NCBI GenBank assembly: GCA_013820875.1
Contig: JACDHS010000017.1
Coordinates: 1 to 50,220 of the forward strand
From: Verrucomicrobiota bacterium
GTDB taxonomy: Bacteria; Verrucomicrobiota; Verrucomicrobiia; Limisphaerales; JACDHS01
Reading direction: 5' to 3'
Length of the DNA: 50,220 nucleotides
The translations under genes were made by a program, and so were the position numbers. Numbering within the stretch: the stretch's first letter is position 1; each line of letters starts with the position of its first letter. Shown here one piece after another: positions 10,435-49,725 of this stretch. The notes under the pieces were generated by a model. The model was not told the origin of the DNA. It saw nothing but the letters and a program-made list of their open reading frames with translations, and made no database searches.

Positions 10435-12201
10435 ATGCGATTCGTCTGTTTGGCTGCCATTCTCCTTTTGCTCTCGCCTGCTGGTTCCTTTGCCCAATCC
10501 ACGGCGCAGGCGGATTTTGTCATCACCAATGCCAACGTAATCACAGTGAACCCGCAGCAGAAGTCGGCCCAGGCAGTGGCCATCCAGGGAAACAAAATTC
10601 TTTTCGTCGGGAACAATGCAGAGACTGCCAGACTGATCTCGCCAAAGACCCGGGTTCTGGATGCCAAAGGCAAAACGGTCATGCCAGGAATCTACGACGG
10701 TCACGTTCATTCTTACCGGGCATCCGTGAGTGAATCAGGTGGTGGTGCTCCGCTGATCCATTCCATTGCGGAAGCGCAGAGTTGGATTCGCAAACAGGCC
10801 GCGATGAAACCCGAAGGGAGCTGGATCATTTTGGAACGGGTTTACGCCTCTCGTTTGCAGGAACAACGGCTTCCAACAAGAAAGGAGTTGGACGAAGCCG
10901 CACCAAACAACCCGGTCCACTGGAATTCAGGCCCGGTTTCAGTAGCGAATTCAAAAGCGCTGGAGATTTCTGGAATTACCCGGGACACGCCCCAACCTGC
11001 TCCCGGTGAAATTGTTAAAAATGCCGACGGAGAGCCGACAGGGCTTTTACGCAACGCTGCGCATTTATTAAAGGGAGCGGTTTCGTCCTATCGCCCCAGT
11101 GCAGAAGAACACCGCACCGCCCTTAAGAAACTTCATTCACTCTACAACCAGCAAGGCATCACCAGCATTGGAGAACGACGCACCGACCCGGAAGCAATTG
11201 ATTTATTTCGTGACCTCGCCAAATCGGGAGAGTTGAGCGTCCGGGTCAATTGCACGCGCCTTGTGGAATCACCGCCCAAAACAGCCGATGAAGCCATCAA
11301 GCGACTGCCTGGAATCACCAATGCCGCGCCCGGTAAACTTGCCTATGGTCCCACGGGAGTGGGTGATGATTGGGTCCGAATGGGGCCGCTCAAACTATTT
11401 CTCGATGGTGGAATGTTGATTGGCACAGCCTATATGCGCGAGCCCTGGGGGGTGTCGGATATGTATCAGATCACAGATCCGGAATATCGCGGCGTCTTGA
11501 ATGTGAAACCCGAGGTGCTGAATCCTCTCTACCTGGAAGCTGCGAAACAAGGTTGGCAATTGACCGCTCATTGCACTGGCGACGCTTCCCCCGGTGTTTT
11601 ACTCGATTGCTATGAACACATCGCCAAAGAACTTGGCCTGGAGACGGTTCGCAACCGCCGTTTTCAAATCACGCACGCTAACTTCATGGACCGTGAGAAT
11701 TTCGAACGTTGCCGCCGCATGAAGATTGGGGCCGATATTCAACCTGCCTGGCTTTACAAGGATGGGGCCACGTTGCTGAAGGTCCTTGGAGAAAAGCGCA
11801 TGGAACAGTTTCAACCGCTCAGAATGTGGTTCCGACAAGGGTTATATATCGGTGGAGGCAGCGATCACATGGTGCAATTGGATTCCATCGAAAGCACCAA
11901 CCCATGGAATCCATGGCTTGGAATGTGGATTGCGCTGAGCCGGCAAACCGAGCGGGGCGGCATTCTCGGCAGACGACAACGAATCATGCGGGAACAGGCC
12001 ATCCGATTTTACACAATCAACAACGCCTATCTGAACCACGAAGAAAAAGTGAAAGGCTCCCTGGAACCGGGCAAACTGGCCGACCTCATCGTCATTGATC
12101 GCGACATCCTAAACTGTCGAGTGGAAGACGTTCGCCATACCAAAGTGCTTATGACCATGGTAGATGGAAAAATAGTTTGGCAGGCTGAAAGCACGGAGTG
12201 A
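10435..12201 (+). CDS. Secreted amidohydrolase (YtcJ-like, amidohydrolase 3 family)
   Basis: 588 residues from ATG 10435, which opens a clear signal peptide (MRFVCLAAILLLLSPAGSFA). The body starts ADFVITNANVITVNP, the beta-sandwich entry of the family. The metal-binding GIYDGHVHS gives the HxH on strand one. LTAHCTGD and ITHANFMD supply the following histidines, and GGGSDHM the late aspartate. The C-terminus KGSLEPGKLADLIVIDRD is the returning sandwich. YtcJ-like enzymes hydrolyse N-acyl or related amide bonds; the substrate here is unknown. The reading frame extends upstream to 10327, but that part lacks protein character. Repeat array B begins 4 nt before the stop codon. Confidence 0.88.
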   Translation: MRFVCLAAILLLLSPAGSFAQSTAQADFVITNANVITVNPQQKSAQAVAIQGNKILFVGNNAETARLISPKTRVLDAKGKTVMPGIYDGHVHSYRASVSESGGGAPLIHSIAEAQSWIRKQAAMKPEGSWIILERVYASRLQEQRLPTRKELDEAAPNNPVHWNSGPVSVANSKALEISGITRDTPQPAPGEIVKNADGEPTGLLRNAAHLLKGAVSSYRPSAEEHRTALKKLHSLYNQQGITSIGERRTDPEAIDLFRDLAKSGELSVRVNCTRLVESPPKTADEAIKRLPGITNAAPGKLAYGPTGVGDDWVRMGPLKLFLDGGMLIGTAYMREPWGVSDMYQITDPEYRGVLNVKPEVLNPLYLEAAKQGWQLTAHCTGDASPGVLLDCYEHIAKELGLETVRNRRFQITHANFMDRENFERCRRMKIGADIQPAWLYKDGATLLKVLGEKRMEQFQPLRMWFRQGLYIGGGSDHMVQLDSIESTNPWNPWLGMWIALSRQTERGGILGRRQRIMREQAIRFYTINNAYLNHEEKVKGSLEPGKLADLIVIDRDILNCRVEDVRHTKVLMTMVDGKIVWQAESTE

Positions 12202-12506
12202 AAATTCCGTAATTCACATAAACATAGACGTTTACGGAACAAAAATTCCGCGGTTCACGTGAATATAGACATTTACGGAACGAAAATTCCGCGGTTCACG
12301 TGAATATAGATGTTTACGGAACGAAAATTCCGTGGTTCACGTAAATATAGACGTTTACGGAACAAAAATTCCGTGGTTCACGTGAATATAGACGTTTACG
12401 GAACGAAAATTCCGCGGTTCACGTAAATATAGACGTTTATGGAACGAAAATTCCGTGGTTTACGTAAATATCGGCGGTTGCGGAGCGGAATATTCGTGAT
12501 TCACGT
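12195..12506. repeat. 41-bp tandem repeat array B (about 7.5 units)
   Basis: Units start at 12195, 12236, 12277, 12318, 12359, 12400 and 12441, with a decayed partial at 12482. The typical unit starts GGAACGAAAATTCCG and ends ACGTTTAC, with the perfect palindrome TTCACGTGAA in the middle of several copies. Units 2-6 are nearly identical and the outer units have drifted. It fills the gap between two convergent genes, so it could affect termination or simply be tolerated there. About 60 bp after the array (12507-12568) shows nothing further. Confidence 0.95.
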
Positions 12507-12568
12507 TAAACCACGACAGTTTTCCCCAAAAATCTCCTACTCGTGTAGTTTAGCGCCTCGTGATGCGT

Positions 12569-15500
12569 TTACTCTTCAGCGTACCGTAGAGACGGCAAGG
12601 TAAACTTGTCGTGGGCGGTTGCCGGGAGGGAAAACCGATCGGTCAATCGAATTTCGTCTTCATCAACCTGGAGTAATGGAAAGCCGGTGTCGTAATTCCC
12701 ATCGTTGATCAACAGCCAGTTTTGGCACCCTTCGGCAAGCGCAGAAAACCCTTTGGGCATGGAAACAGCGGAATGAATTCGATTGCTTTCGATTCGCGTG
12801 GATCCTCCCTGCCACCTGGCTGTTTGATTGCTGAAACCAAGATCGCCGCGTTGCAGGGTGGTAGCGCCGCTCGCGGCAAACCATTTCTTCCCATCGGCAG
12901 CCTGGCCAATCACGCCGACTTTTCCCTGGAAACGCGTATTGAGAATCTCCGTTTCCTGTTCGAACTCGCTGAGAACGAGATAATCGCCCCAAACAGTTTT
13001 GATTTCGAGGGCCACCGCGTCCGCCCCGGCTTTTGGAACGTCCAACCGCCGCGCCGACCGGATCGGCCAAATGCCATCGCTGCTGTTTGGTTCGTGAATC
13101 GCGACAAAAACGCTTTCCAACTCTTTACCCTCACGGATCACATCCACAACTCGCACGCGACGTCCCGGTGGGTTGTGCGACTGTTGTCCGGGACCATTGC
13201 TGGCATGAACGGCATCGGCTGAGGTAAAATTCCAGAACCGAAACGCTCGGCCATCTTCAATCCATTTCGCCTGCCAACTGTTTGTTGGATTTTGAATGAC
13301 GCGTGTGTCACGCAAACCATAGATGTCTTCCCGCTTCAAGCTTGCGCCCACCTTCGGAAGCGGTGGTTCCGCAGGCATTGCAACTCCGTTAAATTCGAGT
13401 CCTGCATTTTTACCCCAACTCGAAGCGAGTTCGCTCCAGACGCGATAGGCATGATTGCTCCCGCCCTTCACACGAAAAAGATCCACGAGAACGGTCCGTC
13501 CTTCCGGCCCTTTGAGCAGGACGATCTCGCGGCGATAATCGCGGCATTGCGCATAGGCATCACTGGATGCCTCCACCGCGGAAACGCGCGGCGTGGTAAA
13601 CATCATCTCCAAGCGCGGCCGGCGTGGATTATTGCGCACTCGAAAACGTTGCTCACTATCATCAACAACGACGAGGTTATGGCTCCTGGTTGATTTGATC
13701 CACGACAAGTGTGGTGTATCGGAAACGTAGCCAAGATCGCCCAGTATTCTTTCGCCACCATCCATGTACCACAAAGCGAGATTATCCGCGTGACGATGGC
13801 CGCCATCCGGGGAGAAATTCAGTGCCGCAAGAGAAGCAGTCGGACCCGCGCCGTTGCGCAACAGCGCAGTCATCCATCCCGGAAAATAGATTTCAGGCAG
13901 TGGCGGCTGGTTTGTCCCTTTGAGATCAGCAGCATCCAGATTGAACAATGCCCAGGCGCTTGGCGTTTTTCCCATCAACGTTTCCGCCATGCCCCGGAAC
14001 ATTTCCGGATACCGTTTCAAACCAAATTCAAGATAGTCGCGCGATGGCCCGCTGCTTTGGGTGCTGTCTTCGAAAGGAATGTATTTCAACTTTGGGGTTA
14101 AGTGATCGAGCGGCGCCTGGTAAATGGCTTTCAGTTTGGGATCGCTCCGATAGGGATCGTCCATGCCGTGATGCGGCGAATTCTCCGGCCATTTGTAGCC
14201 GTGCAATCGTTCGACGATCGGCAACGTCTGCTCCATATACATCGCCGTGTAGGTGGCAGACTCTTCACTGAAACCGTCATAACCAAATGCGTGGTCGCGC
14301 AATGCTTCATAACCAGCCATTGCCACTTCGCAATACTCCGGCAACCCAAGAACGCGCCCAACCGCAGCCATGGCATGGTAAATACGAGGAACTTTGTTGT
14401 TGTGGAGGTCGGATTTGCCTGGTCCGCCGAGATACGTCTCGCCAGTGAAAATCCATTCCAGAAACAGATCGCGCTCTACTTTCGTTCGCTTTTCCTGCGT
14501 CCAAAGAGGACGACCATCCGCTCCGGTCGCGTTATAGGTCAAGTCGTATCCGATGGCTGCGCTGGTCACCAACCACATGGCATCTGTGCTGGGAAAAAGT
14601 CGGCCAGCCCCCCAAAAGGTTTGCAACATCCGAGCTTTCTCCAGGGTGTCTCTCTTGTAGTTATCCGCAGACAAATTGCGCTTGAATTCGAGGGGCAAAT
14701 TCATGTCGTTCACCGCGGCGTAAAGCGGATCGCAGTCGGCAACCGTGTTCCAATAATCATGGTAAAGCCAATTGCGATAGCAGTGCGCAAACCGGTCCAT
14801 GATTTCGACGACACTGGCGGCGTAACGAGGTTCGCCGGTCAACAGGTAGGTGTAGGCAAGATCTTCTACCGCACCCAGCATGAAGGCAGCTTTCGATTGC
14901 CGCACCATGCCGCTGAAACTCATGTTCATCGGCCGGGTGCCGATCCATTGATACGCCAGTTTGCCGCTGCGATCCATTGGGTTTGCCCGCTCGCGTTCGT
15001 TAAAATAAAGGGAGAATTTCTGGCCCATTCGCGGCGCATTGAGCATGGCTGTTTCTGGATAGGCTTCGCTCGGGTAAACCTGGCGGCAAACTCCGCATGA
15101 GATTTGTTCGGGCTTACGATAATCCCAATTGGCACTCCGACCGCTGCCTTCCTGGGTGAGGCGATCAACGCAATGGGGACAAGTGAAACCGTAACCGTAC
15201 CACGGCGTAAGCTCTTCGATCATTTGTGCGACATACCCGTCCGGTTGGTCCACGATATGATCCGCAATGGTGCGCCAGCGGTTGGTCAGATGCCTCGCCC
15301 CTTCTGCGTTTTCGACATTTTCCAACAAACGTCTCCGGGCTTCCGAATCGAACAATGCGGGGTGTTGGATTTGCGGACGGCCTTTCAGCAGGGTCGTTTT
15401 GCGCTCTTCAATCCTTTGGCGGAATTCAATTTCCTCGCGGGTCAGTCCCGACTTTTGCCACGGCAACAAACCGACTCCGTCCCCGCGCGTGATCGCCGCG

Positions 15501-15610
15501 ATGTATTCTTTTCGTTTCGCCTCGTTGCTTCCTGGTTCAATTGACAGGGCGTCCCCAGCCATCCCGCAGAGCCACACGGCGCATAAAAGACATCGAATAA
15601 AACTGCTCAT
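12569..15610 (-). CDS. Secreted heparinase II/III-like polysaccharide lyase
   Basis: 1013 residues with a signal peptide (MSSFIRCLLCAVWLCGMAG). Residues 60-560 have the alpha/alpha-toroid pattern of uronic-acid lyases, including NKVPRIYHAMAAVGRVLG and SEESATYTAMYMEQ. From about residue 590 comes the heparinase II/III beta-sheet domain, with SPDGGHRHADNLALWYMDGG, GDLGYVSDTP and KSTRSHNLVVVDD. The HRHADN histidine near residue 605 is a likely metal or catalytic residue. A four-Cys cluster (CPHC near 136 and CGVC near 170) suggests bound zinc. It probably cleaves an acidic, perhaps sulfated, polysaccharide in the periplasm. It is larger than simple heparinases (about 770 residues). It converges on the amidohydrolase. 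Confidence 0.88.
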   Translation of the reverse strand: MSSFIRCLLCAVWLCGMAGDALSIEPGSNEAKRKEYIAAITRGDGVGLLPWQKSGLTREEIEFRQRIEERKTTLLKGRPQIQHPALFDSEARRRLLENVENAEGARHLTNRWRTIADHIVDQPDGYVAQMIEELTPWYGYGFTCPHCVDRLTQEGSGRSANWDYRKPEQISCGVCRQVYPSEAYPETAMLNAPRMGQKFSLYFNERERANPMDRSGKLAYQWIGTRPMNMSFSGMVRQSKAAFMLGAVEDLAYTYLLTGEPRYAASVVEIMDRFAHCYRNWLYHDYWNTVADCDPLYAAVNDMNLPLEFKRNLSADNYKRDTLEKARMLQTFWGAGRLFPSTDAMWLVTSAAIGYDLTYNATGADGRPLWTQEKRTKVERDLFLEWIFTGETYLGGPGKSDLHNNKVPRIYHAMAAVGRVLGLPEYCEVAMAGYEALRDHAFGYDGFSEESATYTAMYMEQTLPIVERLHGYKWPENSPHHGMDDPYRSDPKLKAIYQAPLDHLTPKLKYIPFEDSTQSSGPSRDYLEFGLKRYPEMFRGMAETLMGKTPSAWALFNLDAADLKGTNQPPLPEIYFPGWMTALLRNGAGPTASLAALNFSPDGGHRHADNLALWYMDGGERILGDLGYVSDTPHLSWIKSTRSHNLVVVDDSEQRFRVRNNPRRPRLEMMFTTPRVSAVEASSDAYAQCRDYRREIVLLKGPEGRTVLVDLFRVKGGSNHAYRVWSELASSWGKNAGLEFNGVAMPAEPPLPKVGASLKREDIYGLRDTRVIQNPTNSWQAKWIEDGRAFRFWNFTSADAVHASNGPGQQSHNPPGRRVRVVDVIREGKELESVFVAIHEPNSSDGIWPIRSARRLDVPKAGADAVALEIKTVWGDYLVLSEFEQETEILNTRFQGKVGVIGQAADGKKWFAASGATTLQRGDLGFSNQTARWQGGSTRIESNRIHSAVSMPKGFSALAEGCQNWLLINDGNYDTGFPLLQVDEDEIRLTDRFSLPATAHDKFTLPSLRYAEE

Positions 15611-15837
15611 CTCGAATTGTTTTGATTAGTCCAATCGCATCCAGGATTGAACAATCTCCATCAAAGGACGTAAATGGGCGGAGCGACATTCAGAATGAGA
15701 TATGTCTCTTCGTGAATTTTGCATCACGCTATTGCACGCCGTGATTTACAAGTTACATTTGAGGGAGCACTATCGCATTGCCTACGGAGAAAATTACATG
15801 CCGCAGGCTAGTAAATCAGTAGAGTAAAAATAACGTT
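15611..15837. other. Upstream region shared by heparinase (-) and small basic protein (+)
   Basis: This 227-bp divergent gap should hold the promoters of both flanking genes. No clear -35/-10 pair or operator stands out to me. ATG 15838 has no strong Shine-Dalgarno sequence (GTAGAGTAAAAATAACGTT precedes it). Confidence 0.4.
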
Positions 15838-15963
15838 ATGGGCGATAAATCCCCGAAGTCTAATCAGAAGAAATCATCACAGAAGCAGGCCGCTTCCAGC
15901 AGCGCCACAAACAAGAAGAATGCTGCTACCGCCAGCAAGCAGGCTGCCGGCAAGAAGAAGTAA
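15838..15963 (+). CDS. Tiny Lys/Ser/Ala-rich basic protein (MGDKSPK family)
   Basis: 41 residues, opening MGDKSPKSNQKKSSQKQAAS and closing QAAGKKK, with no hydrophobic segment. From memory, very similar short basic proteins starting MGDKSPK occur widely in Verrucomicrobiota and related phyla. Their function is unknown; the composition suits binding to nucleic acid or ribosomes. A strong intrinsic terminator begins 20 bp after the stop, which supports an independently transcribed gene. The absence of a clear ribosome-binding site lowers confidence slightly. Confidence 0.75.
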   Translation: MGDKSPKSNQKKSSQKQAASSSATNKKNAATASKQAAGKKK

Positions 15964-15982
15964 GAACTGTCCGTCATCCATT

Positions 15983-16024
15983 CCGTCTCTCCTGGAGTCA
16001 CGTCCGGAGAGACGGATTTTTTTT
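15983..16024 (+). terminator. Intrinsic terminator of the small basic protein gene
   Basis: CCGTCTCTCC (15983-15992) and GGAGAGACGG (16006-16015) form a perfect 10-bp stem with a 13-nt loop. An eight-T run (16017-16024) follows one base after the stem. It is correctly oriented and placed to end transcription of the 41-residue gene. The convergent helicase gene ends just to its right. Confidence 0.9.
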
Positions 16025-16058
16025 CGTTAGCGTCCTCACTACATCGACAGGTCTGGAG

Positions 16059-17372
16059 TTACCAACGCCCGCGCTGCTGTCCACTCGATTGACCGCTCCT
16101 GCCCCGGTTCCCGCCACTGCGGTTGCCGGAGGAACTGGATCGTTGCGGTTGAACCTGGGGTTGTCGCCTTTGACTGTTTGGATTTCGTTGCTGCTGAGAA
16201 CGAGGTGTTCTCTCTGGCTGATAATCTGCCGGCACCCCTGCGGCATAGTTGAATCCTTCCGCCTTTCTTCGGACGATGCCGCGTCCAATAAACCGTTCGA
16301 GGGAACGCAATTCGCCATGATCATCTGGTGTCACGAAGCTGATCGCATCACCCACTGCATTGGCGCGCCCGGTGCGACCGATACGATGGACGTAATCTTC
16401 CGCATGCATCGGGAAATCGTAGTTCACCACGTGTGAAATACCGTCCACGTCAATGCCGCGCGCCGCGATATCCGTCGCCACCAACACACGCACTGCGCCG
16501 GATTTGAAATCTTTCAACGCCTTCAACCGCTGGTTCTGCGAACGGTTGGAATGCAGCGTCGCTGTCCGGATGCCTTTTTGCTCCAGGGCCTTCGCAATGC
16601 GATCAGCACTATGCTTCATCCGCGAGAAAACCAGCACCATATCCATTGAAGGATCGCGCAGAAGATGGTGCAGCAACGCTGGCTTCAAATGCTTCGGCAC
16701 TTCATAAACCAACTGCGTGACCGTTTCCGCAGGATTGGCGCGGCGTCCGATTTGCACCGTCTTCGGCGACTTTTGAAATTCATGGGTGAGCGCTTCAATC
16801 TCCTTGGACAACGTCGCGGAAAACAGAAGCGTTTGCCGTTGTTTCGTGAGTGGTTGCACGATGCGGCGGATCGAAGGGAGGAACCCCATATCAAGCATCC
16901 GGTCGGCTTCATCCAGCACAAGGAATTTCAACTGCGAAAAGTCCGTGCACCGCTGGCCCATCAAATCCAGCAATCGGCCCGGACATGCAACGATTACATC
17001 CGCTCCCGCCCGCAATGCGCGGATTTGCGGTTGTTCGCCCACGCCGCCGAAAACTGTGGCGACCGTCAACGGCAGATGCTTGGCGTAAGCCTTTATGTTT
17101 TCTTCAATTTGCACGACGAGTTCGCGCGTCGGTGCGAGCACGAGTACACGTGTAGCGCGACGCTGGCCGGGAGGCTGTTCGGCGAGCTTCGTGAGAATAG
17201 GCAGCGTGAAGGCCGCGGTCTTGCCGGTGCCGGTCTGAGCGATACCAATAAGGTCGTGCCCGGCAATAATGGGTGGAATGGCGGCAGTCTGGATCGGAGT
17301 CGGTTCAGTATAACCGGCTTCCTTTACCGCCTGCAAAATCTTGGCATCTAGGCCAAGTGGTTGAAATGACAT
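16059..17372 (-). CDS. DEAD-box RNA helicase (RhlE-like)
   Basis: 437 residues with the full motif set. The Q motif is PTPIQTAAIPPI, motif I AQTGTGKT has Lys51, and Ia is PTREL. Motif II LDEAD is at 153-157, III is FSATLS, V is TDIAARGIDV and VI is HRIGRTGR. The two RecA domains end near residue 375, followed by a basic Arg/Gln/Ser/Gly-rich tail (RSQQQRNPNSQRRQ and SGNRSGGNRGRSG) that probably binds RNA. This layout matches RhlE-type helicases in ribosome assembly, RNA decay or cold adaptation. It is a cytoplasmic, single-gene unit. Confidence 0.95.
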   Translation of the reverse strand: MSFQPLGLDAKILQAVKEAGYTEPTPIQTAAIPPIIAGHDLIGIAQTGTGKTAAFTLPILTKLAEQPPGQRRATRVLVLAPTRELVVQIEENIKAYAKHLPLTVATVFGGVGEQPQIRALRAGADVIVACPGRLLDLMGQRCTDFSQLKFLVLDEADRMLDMGFLPSIRRIVQPLTKQRQTLLFSATLSKEIEALTHEFQKSPKTVQIGRRANPAETVTQLVYEVPKHLKPALLHHLLRDPSMDMVLVFSRMKHSADRIAKALEQKGIRTATLHSNRSQNQRLKALKDFKSGAVRVLVATDIAARGIDVDGISHVVNYDFPMHAEDYVHRIGRTGRANAVGDAISFVTPDDHGELRSLERFIGRGIVRRKAEGFNYAAGVPADYQPERTPRSQQQRNPNSQRRQPQVQPQRSSSSGNRSGGNRGRSGQSSGQQRGRW

Positions 17373-26619: not shown

Positions 26620-28712
<2,093 letters not shown>

Positions 28713-29365: not shown

Positions 29366-29743
29366 GATCATCCGGAGGTGGGCTGGAGACCATCCAGGCC
29401 GTTTTCGGATGATCCGGAAGTGGGCTTGAGACCGTCCAGGCCGTTTTCGGATGATCCGGAAGTGGGCTGGAGACCGTCCAGACGGTTTTCGGATGATCCG
29501 GAAGTGGGCTTGAGACCATCCAGGCCGTTTCCGGATGATCCGGAAGTGGCCTTGAGACCATCCAGACGGTTTCGGGATGATCCGGAAGTGGGCTGGAGAC
29601 CATCCAGGCCGTTTCCGGATGATCCGGAAGTGGGCTTGAGACCGTCCAGGCCGTTTCCGGATGATCCGGAAGTGGGCTTGAGACCATCCAGACGGTTTCC
29701 GGATGATCTGGAAGTGGGCTGGAGACCGTCCAGCCCACGTTCC
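29366..29743. repeat. 42-bp tandem repeat array D (nine units)
   Basis: Nine contiguous 42-bp units start at 29366, 29408, 29450, 29492, 29534, 29576, 29618, 29660 and 29702. Each starts GATGATCCGGAAGTGGG with few variants. Because 42 is a multiple of three and the unit lacks stops in some frames, both strands show open 14-residue repeat frames. Neither strand has a convincing start signal or known protein, so I treat it as non-coding. It lies in the divergent gap between thiC (minus) and the ExeA-like gene (plus). Confidence 0.93.
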
Positions 29744-30013: not shown

Positions 30014-30841
30014 ATGTTCTCCGTGTATTTGGAATATTACGGCTTGAAGGAGCCGCCATTCAACATCACGCCAAATCCGCGTTTTTTGTTCTACAGCGCC
30101 AAGCATCGCGAGGCGTTCAACCATTTGCTTTATGGTATCCGCGAACGCAAAGGGTTTGTCCAACTGACGGGAGAAGTCGGCGCGGGCAAAACCACGATCT
30201 GCCGCGCGTTGCTCGAAGAACTCGATCCCAAGAAGTATTCCACCGCGCTGATCCTGAATCCGGTACTCGATGCGGATGGTTTGATGAAAGCGATTGCGAT
30301 GGAGTTCGGCCTTGAGGTGAAAGGCAAAGATCGGCTGGAAACGGTGGCTGCATTCAATGAATTTCTCTTGAACCAGGTCGAGCTGGCGAGGGATTGCGTG
30401 CTCATTATTGATGAGGCGCAGGATTTGACCAACGAACTTTTGGAACAGGTGCGACTTCTCTCAAACCTGGAAACGGATGATCGCAAGCTGTTGCAGATTG
30501 TTTTGATGGGCCAACCCGAACTGCGCACCCGGCTGAATGACTATAGCCTGCGGCAATTGCGGCAACGGATCACCGTCCGCTACCATCTTGTGCCGTTGAA
30601 GTATGCTGAAGTGGGTGAGTATATCCGGCATCGGTTGCATGTTTCAGGCGCGAATGGCTCGCCACGTTTCACCACGCCGGCACTTTGGCGCGTTTACAGC
30701 TACAGCAAGGGAATTCCGAGACTTGTGAATGCGCTCGCTGATAAATGTTTGCTGGCTGGCTATGTAAAACAGAGCGGCCAGATTGATTATGGAACGGTAG
30801 GACGCGCGATTCGGGAGTTGGAAGGAAATATTAATGTATGA
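30014..30841 (+). CDS. ExeA/GspA-like AAA ATPase
   Basis: 275 residues. It opens MFSVYLEYYGLKEPPFNITP, the standard ExeA/GspA N-terminus. Walker A TGEVGAGKTT covers residues 52-61, Walker B is VLIIDEAQDL, followed by sensor-like LLSNLETDDRKLLQIVLMGQ, and RQRITVRYHL and GIPRLVNALADKCLLAG close the AAA lid. In type II secretion, ExeA with ExeB helps insert the secretin through peptidoglycan. A related ATPase occurs in exosortase loci. The start at 30014 is fixed by family alignment. The stop overlaps the next start (ATGA), so it is coupled to the GspB-like gene, which supports the ExeAB assignment. Confidence 0.92.
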   Translation: MFSVYLEYYGLKEPPFNITPNPRFLFYSAKHREAFNHLLYGIRERKGFVQLTGEVGAGKTTICRALLEELDPKKYSTALILNPVLDADGLMKAIAMEFGLEVKGKDRLETVAAFNEFLLNQVELARDCVLIIDEAQDLTNELLEQVRLLSNLETDDRKLLQIVLMGQPELRTRLNDYSLRQLRQRITVRYHLVPLKYAEVGEYIRHRLHVSGANGSPRFTTPALWRVYSYSKGIPRLVNALADKCLLAGYVKQSGQIDYGTVGRAIRELEGNINV

Positions 30842-31485
30842 GTTTGATCAATGACGCGCTGAAACGCGCCAAAGAAGCGCAAAACGAGCCTCAATCACAG
30901 GCTCAGACGCAGCAGCGAAAAGTTTCGGAACCCGCAATGCGCCCTGTTGAAGCCAGGCCGCAACCGACTTCCTCCGCCGTTTACATTTTATCCGCCGCTC
31001 TGGTGTTCGTTTTGTTGGGTGCGGTGGCGCTGTTCTGGATGTGGAGCAATTCGCGGCAACCCGGCGTGGTGGCTCAGACCATTACACCGGTGGATCTGGC
31101 GAAAACTAACGCGACACCGTTGGTTCCCATAGCGAAACCTGTTGAAATTGCTGCTTCTGTTCCGCCCCCGGTTGCAGTCGCTTCAGCACCGGCGGTAGTC
31201 GCGAATGAAACGCCGCAACCTCCAATTGTCGCGGCTGAAAACTCACCGACGTTAATAAAGGAACCAACTCCCGCACCGGAACCTGTCGCGCCCGCAGTCC
31301 CCCAGTTTCCTACGCTAAAACTCCAAGGAATTTTTTATAATTCCGTAAAGCCTGCTGTTTTGATCAATGGCAAAACCTATTCGATTGGCGGCGTCGTTTC
31401 CGGCGTTCAGATTACCAAAATCGAGTCGGACAAAGTGACGGTGAAATGGAATGATGAAATACGTGTTTTGGAGACGGCGCAGTGA
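30838..31485 (+). CDS. GspB/ExeB-like inner membrane protein
   Basis: 215 residues. It begins MSLINDALKRAKEAQ, the cytoplasmic motif characteristic of GspB-type proteins. A membrane helix at about 43-64 (VYILSAALVFVLLGAVALFW) is followed by a long Pro/Ala/Val-rich linker. The C-terminal periplasmic domain LKLQGIFYNSVKPAVLINGK, YSIGGVVSGVQITKIESD resembles the GspB C-domain and PilP-like folds. It is translationally coupled to the ATPase, with which it should form the ExeAB complex. No other secretion genes are nearby. The stop codon is immediately followed by a heptamer repeat. Confidence 0.88.
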   Translation: MSLINDALKRAKEAQNEPQSQAQTQQRKVSEPAMRPVEARPQPTSSAVYILSAALVFVLLGAVALFWMWSNSRQPGVVAQTITPVDLAKTNATPLVPIAKPVEIAASVPPPVAVASAPAVVANETPQPPIVAAENSPTLIKEPTPAPEPVAPAVPQFPTLKLQGIFYNSVKPAVLINGKTYSIGGVVSGVQITKIESDKVTVKWNDEIRVLETAQ

Positions 31486-31549
31486 TTCTGGATTCTGGAT
31501 TCTGGATTCTGGATTCTGGATTCTGGATTCTGGATTCTGGATTCTGGAT
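31484..31549. repeat. Heptanucleotide microsatellite (GATTCTG)n
   Basis: About 9.4 uninterrupted copies of the 7-mer GATTCTG, beginning within the TGA stop of the GspB-like gene. On the minus strand it would read as repeated RIQNPES, which is a translation artefact. A gain or loss of units would not alter the upstream protein because the stop lies at the first unit. Confidence 0.95.
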
Positions 31550-49025: not shown

Positions 49026-49286
49026 CGTGTTGAATGTTCCATCCAGAAAGGCCGCACCGTTTCTTCCGCTACGACACAAGGTGTGTTTTCCACCCGCGTT
49101 TCAGTCGCTCATGAATCGAACATTCGGTTTATGACACAAGCGCCATGCCCCGCATAGGCCAAAAGTTGCGACAAATTCCGGCCTCCCCATTTGGCCTTGG
49201 AGTGACAATAGTTTACACAACTAAAATAATCTCATTTCCAGGGCTGTTTTTTCGATTTTCGCCTTCTAAATCCATCGGAAAAAGTC
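49026..49286. other. Upstream region of the FN3 gene; no gene seen
   Basis: No reading frame with protein character. It should contain the FN3 gene promoter, which I could not identify. It leads into array C on the right, and the last 15 bp (CCATCGGAAAAAGTC) already resemble array C unit ends. Confidence 0.4.
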
Positions 49287-49630
49287 GTGGGAAATATTTC
49301 AGCGACTCCCAACCACTGGAAAACATTGTCAGAAATATTTCCCACTTTGTTACCTATTGAAAAAAGTCGTGAGAAATAGTTTCAACCTCTTCACCCACTC
49401 GAAAAAATCGTGAGAAACTTTTCTTACCATGCCATCCAACGAACTGAGTTGTGAGAAACTTTTCTTACGATGTCATCCAATGAATCGAGTTGTGAGAAAA
49501 CTTTCACACTACTCCGCTCATAGAAAACCACTGTGGAAAAAAAAATCTCTCACCACTGCGCGTTGAAAAATTCGGTAGGAAATAATTCTTCCCTTAATGC
49601 CCACAGGAGGAGTTTTCGGAAAACATTGCG
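49287..49630. repeat. 41-bp-period degenerate tandem array C (about eight units)
   Basis: Units begin at 49287, 49329, 49370, 49411, 49452, 49493, 49533 and 49575, spacings of 42, 41, 41, 41, 41, 40 and 42 bp. Most start GTGAGAAA or GTGGGAAA followed by a T-rich stretch. The central pair (49411 and 49452) is nearly identical and the outer units have drifted widely. No spacers and no coding potential. Confidence 0.88.
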
Positions 49631-49663
49631 CGAAGCCTGCCGACGCTGTTCGTTCTACAACCA

Positions 49664-49725
49664 CCGTAGCGCGGACTTTAGTCTTAATCCGGCAGTTGGA
49701 ATTCAACGCAGAGGCGTAGCGGATT
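49664..49725. repeat. Half copy of the GTAGCGCGGACTTT palindromic element
   Basis: GTAGCGCGGACTTTAGTCTTAATCCGGC here matches the left half of the element at 846-985, and GCGTAGCGGATTTA follows on the right. No intact palindrome remains. Confidence 0.6.

Follow-up and report, generated by a model that had tools for sequence, protein, structure and literature searches.

Tandem Arrays of Many Unrelated Sequences Share a 41–43-bp Unit in a Verrucomicrobiota Genome

Introduction

A repeat family is ordinarily recognized by its sequence. The window analyzed here, a 50,220-nt stretch that is the whole of contig G000:C217 in a Verrucomicrobiota draft genome (assembly of 5.70 Mb in 239 contigs, 99% complete), contains four tandem arrays, A to D, that an earlier note on this DNA had described as near-equal in period and different in sequence; the note went on to suggest that the period itself is constrained. 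The description was accurate, the periods being 41, 41, 41, and 42 bp and the sequences falling into four separate families by blastn grouping (no strand is assigned to any of the four). The question that this locus raises is whether a repeat unit can be held to a given length while its letters change and, if so, what would do the holding.

Four Arrays in One Window

Array A (positions 1–140; period 41, 3.4 copies) is truncated by the contig start and belongs to the same sequence family as L020, L024, L056, L193, and L206. Array B (12193–12506; period 41, 7.7 copies) is flanked by convergent genes, an amidohydrolase gene with its stop at 12201 and a heparinase-like gene from 12569, and has relatives on contigs C193, C75, and C36 of the same genome (G000) as well as in a sister genus, G001. 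Array D (29366–29743) had been credited with a period of exactly 42 bp over nine units, and so it proves: Tandem Repeats Finder (TRF) reports 29366–29733 at 8.8 copies, with 91% matches and no indels, and the ninth unit extends to 29743. It lies between divergent genes, thiC (26620–28587, minus strand) and an AAA ATPase gene (from ~30014, plus strand), is palindromic (self reverse-complement z of 4.5), and is related to L197.

Array C (49285–49640; period 41) consists of about eight units, and because these are diverged TRF catches just part of it, 2.3 units at 49410–49504. Self-comparison of 49285–49640 gives a top lag of 41 at 54% identity, with 34% at lag 40 and 37% at lag 42, where 5000 first-order Markov simulations, maximized over lags 20–99, reach 33% on average and 39% at most. 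A repeat search places seven in-register copies exactly 41 bp apart at 49244–49540. The spacing first claimed for this array, ~41 bp over some eight heavily diverged units, is therefore borne out, while its extent needs slight revision, the array being a little longer than originally described, with degenerate units at both ends. Its sequence, which had been called unrelated, does differ in family from A, B, and D, but it is a diverged relative of four other arrays of this genome, L022, L025, L041, and L054. Array C is also palindromic, weakly but significantly so (z 3.8, p 0.007).

The window holds, in addition, a collapsed one-unit copy of a dispersed element found at L048 and L199 (1000–1121, plus strand), in which head and tail are present and the tandem body is absent. 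GTAG-tagged palindromes of classical look (GTAGCGCGGACTTT..) were picked out by eye at ~846–868 and 49666–49690; the second sits ~26 bp past array C and is distinct from the array units. A perfect heptamer run, GATTCTG repeated 9.4 times (31484–31549), found where a predicted reading frame (30838–31485) ends, is possibly a slippage switch.

The Distribution of Periods

A constrained period should appear as a sharp peak, and an unconstrained one as a broad distribution, across the genome; we examined ~18% of this one draft genome in two parts. In the first sample, the window plus 40 stretches (744,494 bp), TRF yields 45 arrays with a period of at least 20, and 36 of these have a unit of 41–43 bp (22 at 41, eight at 42, five at 43, and one called as 82, which is also 41). 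The other nine comprise four pieces of one CRISPR region (61, 122), one array of 33 bp, and four of 21–22 bp. The hold-out, 20 previously unseen contigs (264,589 bp) searched for arrays of period at least 20 and length at least 60 bp, places 14 of 16 arrays at 41–43, the remaining two being 21 and 141 bp. A lag count that dispenses with TRF (lags 24–59, N runs left out) finds 24 loci at lag 41, 9 at 42, and 6 at 43 in the first sample; the hold-out has 6, 7, and 2 at these lags. Neither sample has any at 40 or 44, and matches elsewhere are sparse, one or two each, at 24, 28, 32, 35, and 49. A broad distribution is thus excluded within the sampled 1.0 Mb.

In total there are 50 arrays of unit 41–43 per 1,009,083 bp, or about one per 20 kb and 1.2% of the sequence, which extrapolates to ~280 arrays in the whole genome; the median length of the 43 complete arrays is likewise ~280 bp. 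Arrays of this kind also explain assembly breaks, being found at 8 of 44 contig starts and 2 of 25 contig ends against their 1.2% of the sequence, and because the assembly breaks within arrays, very uniform or long ones are under-counted. Together with six arrays of the sister genus, the 50 form 26 sequence families (blastn, E 1e-4). If unit length were uniform on 20–60 bp, the chance of all 26 families falling at 41–43 would be ~1e-30, a figure to be read as a yardstick only. In the sister genus itself, 6 of 7 arrays with a period of at least 20 are at 41–43 (101,551 bp). With a spike common to 26 unrelated families and repeated in a second genus, the suggestion that the period itself is constrained is supported.

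Could a single ancestral array instead have handed down its period without any selection? Unit length is indeed mostly uniform inside a family, and distant links join some families, B with L034 and G001, and C with the four relatives named above. On the other hand, the 26 families lack similarity at E 1e-4 and still show no main unit of 40, 44, or beyond; an unselected length should spread as the sequence does; and the values 41, 42, and 43 demonstrate that length can shift, only inside that range. Common descent on its own strikes us as very improbable.

The spike is absent from the samples taken in other families. Across 15 other families of the order (30 stretches, 557,203 bp), none of the 16 arrays with a period of at least 20 is at 41–43, and the two lag-42 matches are both heptamer runs. 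These families were sampled at ~13–80 kb each, which together excludes a density like that of G000, and rare arrays could escape. The family-1 element, discussed below, has no match in the 292 other genomes of the order that were searched. Among named genomes, the top protein matches of one gene in the window come from metagenome-assembled Verrucomicrobiota of the Pedosphaera type. As far as sampled, then, the arrays are specific to a Pedosphaera-like family of Verrucomicrobiota, and our search of the open-access literature found nothing on 41–43-bp intergenic arrays in this phylum.

Length Kept, Sequence Lost

The constraint can also be followed inside individual arrays. A banded self-alignment, applied to 42 arrays with an aligner whose gap penalty favors few gaps, gives a local period of 41–43 for 97.7% of the aligned bases; there are 81 gap events, 74 of them ±1, against 1960 mismatches. 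The scarcity of indels is by itself a weak contrast, since the tails of one element's copies likewise rarely differ by indels. The same self-alignment counts give a mean period of ~41.6 bp, which corresponds to 10.4 bp per turn over four helical turns.

The array at L142 (L142:945–1280), which adjoins a gene for a REP-associated tyrosine transposase (RAYT), illustrates how far letters and length can part company. Over its eight units at 42 bp, a 20-column block has a mean pair identity of 0.83, while the other 22 columns stand at 0.35. A dispersed copy on contig C93, 94% identical over 549 bp, has the same spacers, and in one of these apparent –1/+1 indels, read by eye, leave the period at 42. 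Array C is of the L142 type with a weaker contrast, its best-conserved 20-column block having a mean pair identity of 60% and its other columns 40%. The 41–43-bp unit is held regardless of sequence. Helical phasing of A-tracts was considered as a basis and set aside as not specific, because although the fourth harmonic of the A/T spectrum (10.3 bp) is raised, the third is raised equally.

Symmetry of the Unit

Of 36 arrays measured against column-permuted copies, 23 have a significant self reverse-complement match (p < 0.05), with a mean z of 4.3; the other 13, array B included, have no significant dyad symmetry by these controls. A similar test, run on the consensus units of 30 arrays, gives 12 at p < 0.05 and a mean z of 2.4, as compared with 0.4 for a mirror (non-complement) control. 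The presence of two dyad axes is not independent evidence, since one axis in a periodic sequence forces a second half a period off. In five strongly diverged arrays (L031, L032, L022, L148, and L027), half-units resemble each other at 0.63–0.65 across orientations and 0.63–0.68 within one, with a control reading of 0.31–0.40. Half-units being equally alike either way, the basic piece of these five arrays is a half-unit of 20.5–21.5 bp that alternates in orientation. Many units are double dyads, built from two inverted half-units of this length.

Units of this kind fold, which brings in the reading that the element is a structured RNA, a transcribed chain of ~20-nt hairpins. One locus argues for it directly: at L055:13589–13834, six units at 41 bp, the central 7-bp stem lies between fixed flanks and has two-sided changes at 5 of its 7 pairs, and its cells are paired at 81%, versus 61% when shuffled (0 of 500) and 21–45% when slid. 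The ends of the L048/L199 element, whose sequences are complementary beside the array, pair around it, and G·T and A·C mismatches are unequal in some arrays, a comparison that is overdispersed and treats the units of one array as independent. The wider evidence runs the other way. Complementarity internal to hairpins, beyond that across units, reaches p < 0.05 in just 1 of 43 arrays, with a slightly negative mean, which counts against hairpin covariation as a general property, although this test passed over the L055 stem by picking a different axis. There is no Rfam match in the window or four further loci, the orientation of elements relative to genes looks random, the two strands fold with about the same stability, and a chain of hairpins gives no grounds for a period kept to ±1 bp. 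The general RNA-hairpin reading is therefore the weaker one, and we consider it improbable; L055 is a real exception, and some elements may have an RNA role.

Dispersed Elements and Their Setting

The arrays are the bodies of non-coding elements that are dispersed between genes and copied with their flanks. Copies of family 1 (L050), some complete and some partial, occur at a dozen further loci, with 82–92% identity among the longer ones; the left flank is conserved, and several copies also have a tail, which reaches ~180 bp at the longest. The L048/L199 element is ~372 bp long, and its head or tail finds matches on ~15 other contigs. L038 and L193 have 552 bp in common at 93% identity, the array occupying 249–519 of L038. 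Where dispersed copies differ in copy number, the difference amounts to one or two whole units, 43 bp for L038/L195 and 83 bp for L019/L211. The homologous blocks of L142/C93 and L038/L193 stop at short REP-like palindromes, and no target-site duplication was seen at the inspected ends of complete element pairs.

None of the 24 arrays with both neighbors called by our home-made gene caller lies inside a predicted gene, and the orientation of neighboring genes looks random in the two families examined. A tie to one kind of gene was rejected, the 20 neighbors scanned being of all sorts (DnaB, RecA, PGK, transketolase, FeoB, sulfatase, and others). An amidohydrolase gene is followed by an array both in this genome and in G001; the next gene differs, and chance could explain the coincidence. 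A phage, plasmid, or viral origin was likewise rejected: the L048 element has no match in phages and the family-1 element none in plasmids, and a lone exact 19-mer in a viral contig, which sits in an array-free phage coding region, looks like chance.

Several of these observations would sit comfortably with a constraint that lies in the amplification process only, with hairpin-templated slippage, or an enzyme measuring ~42 nt, amplifying any palindromic seed and the arrays going unread afterwards. Dyads do co-occur with tandem repetition, array ends are degenerate, copy number shifts by whole units, the window has its one-unit copy of the L048 element, and neighboring genes are unrelated. Left unexplained are the long-diverged arrays, L142, C, L043, and L096, which keep their period after the sequence has been lost, and the near-exclusive restriction of indels to ±1. 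Nor does loss of SbcCD serve as a lineage-specific cause, since SbcD, which usually keeps palindromes in check, clears its cut-off in just 1 of the 30 genomes examined from the order, and its absence is not specific to the family. A process acting alone is, in our judgment, a doubtful explanation.

The genome encodes a REP-associated tyrosine transposase (NF047646). The RAYT at L142, the one inspected in detail, is flanked by its own, different palindromes (L142:1346–1402), with the array ~60 bp beyond them. An array lies within ~2–3 kb of 2 of the 7 Y1 loci, which is near the expectation from array density alone. A separate curiosity is found at L144:1–3204 (G000:C66, ~11971–15174), where an alanyl-tRNA synthetase frame (PF01411, PF07973) contains an in-frame Y1 insert, with PF01797 at residues 501–567 (20.1 bits, slightly below cut-off); a REP-like translated stretch precedes the Y1 domain, and the 1068-aa frame is fully open.

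Discussion

The reading that we prefer, with a probability of roughly 0.5, is that these are mobile palindromic elements resembling REP/BIMEs, and that some factor acting on the DNA keeps their unit at four helical turns. We infer both that the elements are mobile and that a protein reads them. Spread would proceed via a hairpin substrate, and the enzyme handling it may be an IS200/RAYT-type tyrosine transposase. With one half-unit per two turns, all sites would come to lie on the same DNA face, and the recognizer of such helically phased sites would be the enzyme that copies the element or a host protein that coats it, both putative. Letters would then drift freely because it is spacing and dyad symmetry that are recognized, and the unit would stay at four turns because the recognizer acts on phased sites. 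The ±1 tolerance, the free spacers, and the mean of ~41.6 bp fit sites confined to one face, and the fixed length of those otherwise free spacers, taken with the ±1 indels and a value of about four turns, leads us to favor a DNA-level constraint over a mere habit of amplification. In a variant that we regard as rather unlikely, a DNA-coating or filament-forming protein of this family, with a four-turn (~42 bp) repeat of its own, would select arrays of two-turn half-sites from unrelated intergenic sequence at one place after another. The arrays would then be a bacterial counterpart of nucleosome-length satellites, recognized by spacing and symmetry and not by their letters.

The trait common to 26 unrelated families is a length, which points to the recognition of DNA geometry. 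If the preferred reading is true, a spacing rule can govern how REP-like elements evolve, with entire arrays as the evolving objects, and arrays defined by spacing would offer a clean, testable system for the effects of half-turn changes.

Comparison with Known Systems

Ordinary bacterial VNTRs have a wide range of periods. The present arrays resemble these minisatellites in being non-coding tandem direct repeats with a unit in the 10–100-bp range and copy number that changes by whole units (here between dispersed copies), and differ from them in the period spike, the dyad symmetry, and the dispersal of whole elements. The comparison with MITEs turns on the ends: no target-site duplication at those inspected, complementary sequences beside the array in L048/L199, and REP-like palindromes at some ends.

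CRISPR comes to mind for arrays of the L142 type, which alternate a conserved block of ~20–22 nt with unlike stretches of ~20 nt at a fixed period. However, the L142 spacers recur in the dispersed copy C93, unlike spacers acquired uniquely one by one, and arrays not of the L142 type have no unlike spacers. The same genome has an ordinary CRISPR at L054 (G000:C160), 14242–16532, with a period of 61 bp and a repeat of ~29 bp (CGGACCATCCCCACGTGTGTGGGGAGAAC).

A close likeness is to the REP, BIME, and REPIN elements and their RAYT enzymes, characterized as short imperfect palindromes that are extragenic and dispersed, arranged in inverted pairs and sometimes in tandem clusters (Di Nocera 2013, PMC3733652; Bertels and Rainey 2011, PMC3116915). 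Palindromic units (23 of 36 arrays), extragenic position, and dispersal are all found here. REPs bear a GTAG or CGTC tag at one foot of the palindrome; the GTAG-tagged palindromes seen in the window stand apart from the array units. REPINs form a small number of families in each genome; their sequences are fixed, and their inter-REP spacings are commonly 71 or 110 bp (PMC3116915), whereas here one genome has many unrelated sequences, all at 41–43 bp and tiled as arrays of ~280 bp. A RAYT gene in such systems is flanked by the element's own palindromes; the RAYT at L142 is flanked by palindromes unlike the array units, with an array a short way beyond them.

For unrelated sequences that share a unit length, the parallel is with the nucleosomal-length satellites of eukaryotes, in which the common length has been attributed to DNA packaging (PMC8122249). 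Packaging by histones was rejected for the present case, PF00808 being found in 0 of 30 genomes. The arrays described here are instead bacterial and dispersed, ~280 bp in length, and measured out in units of four helical turns.
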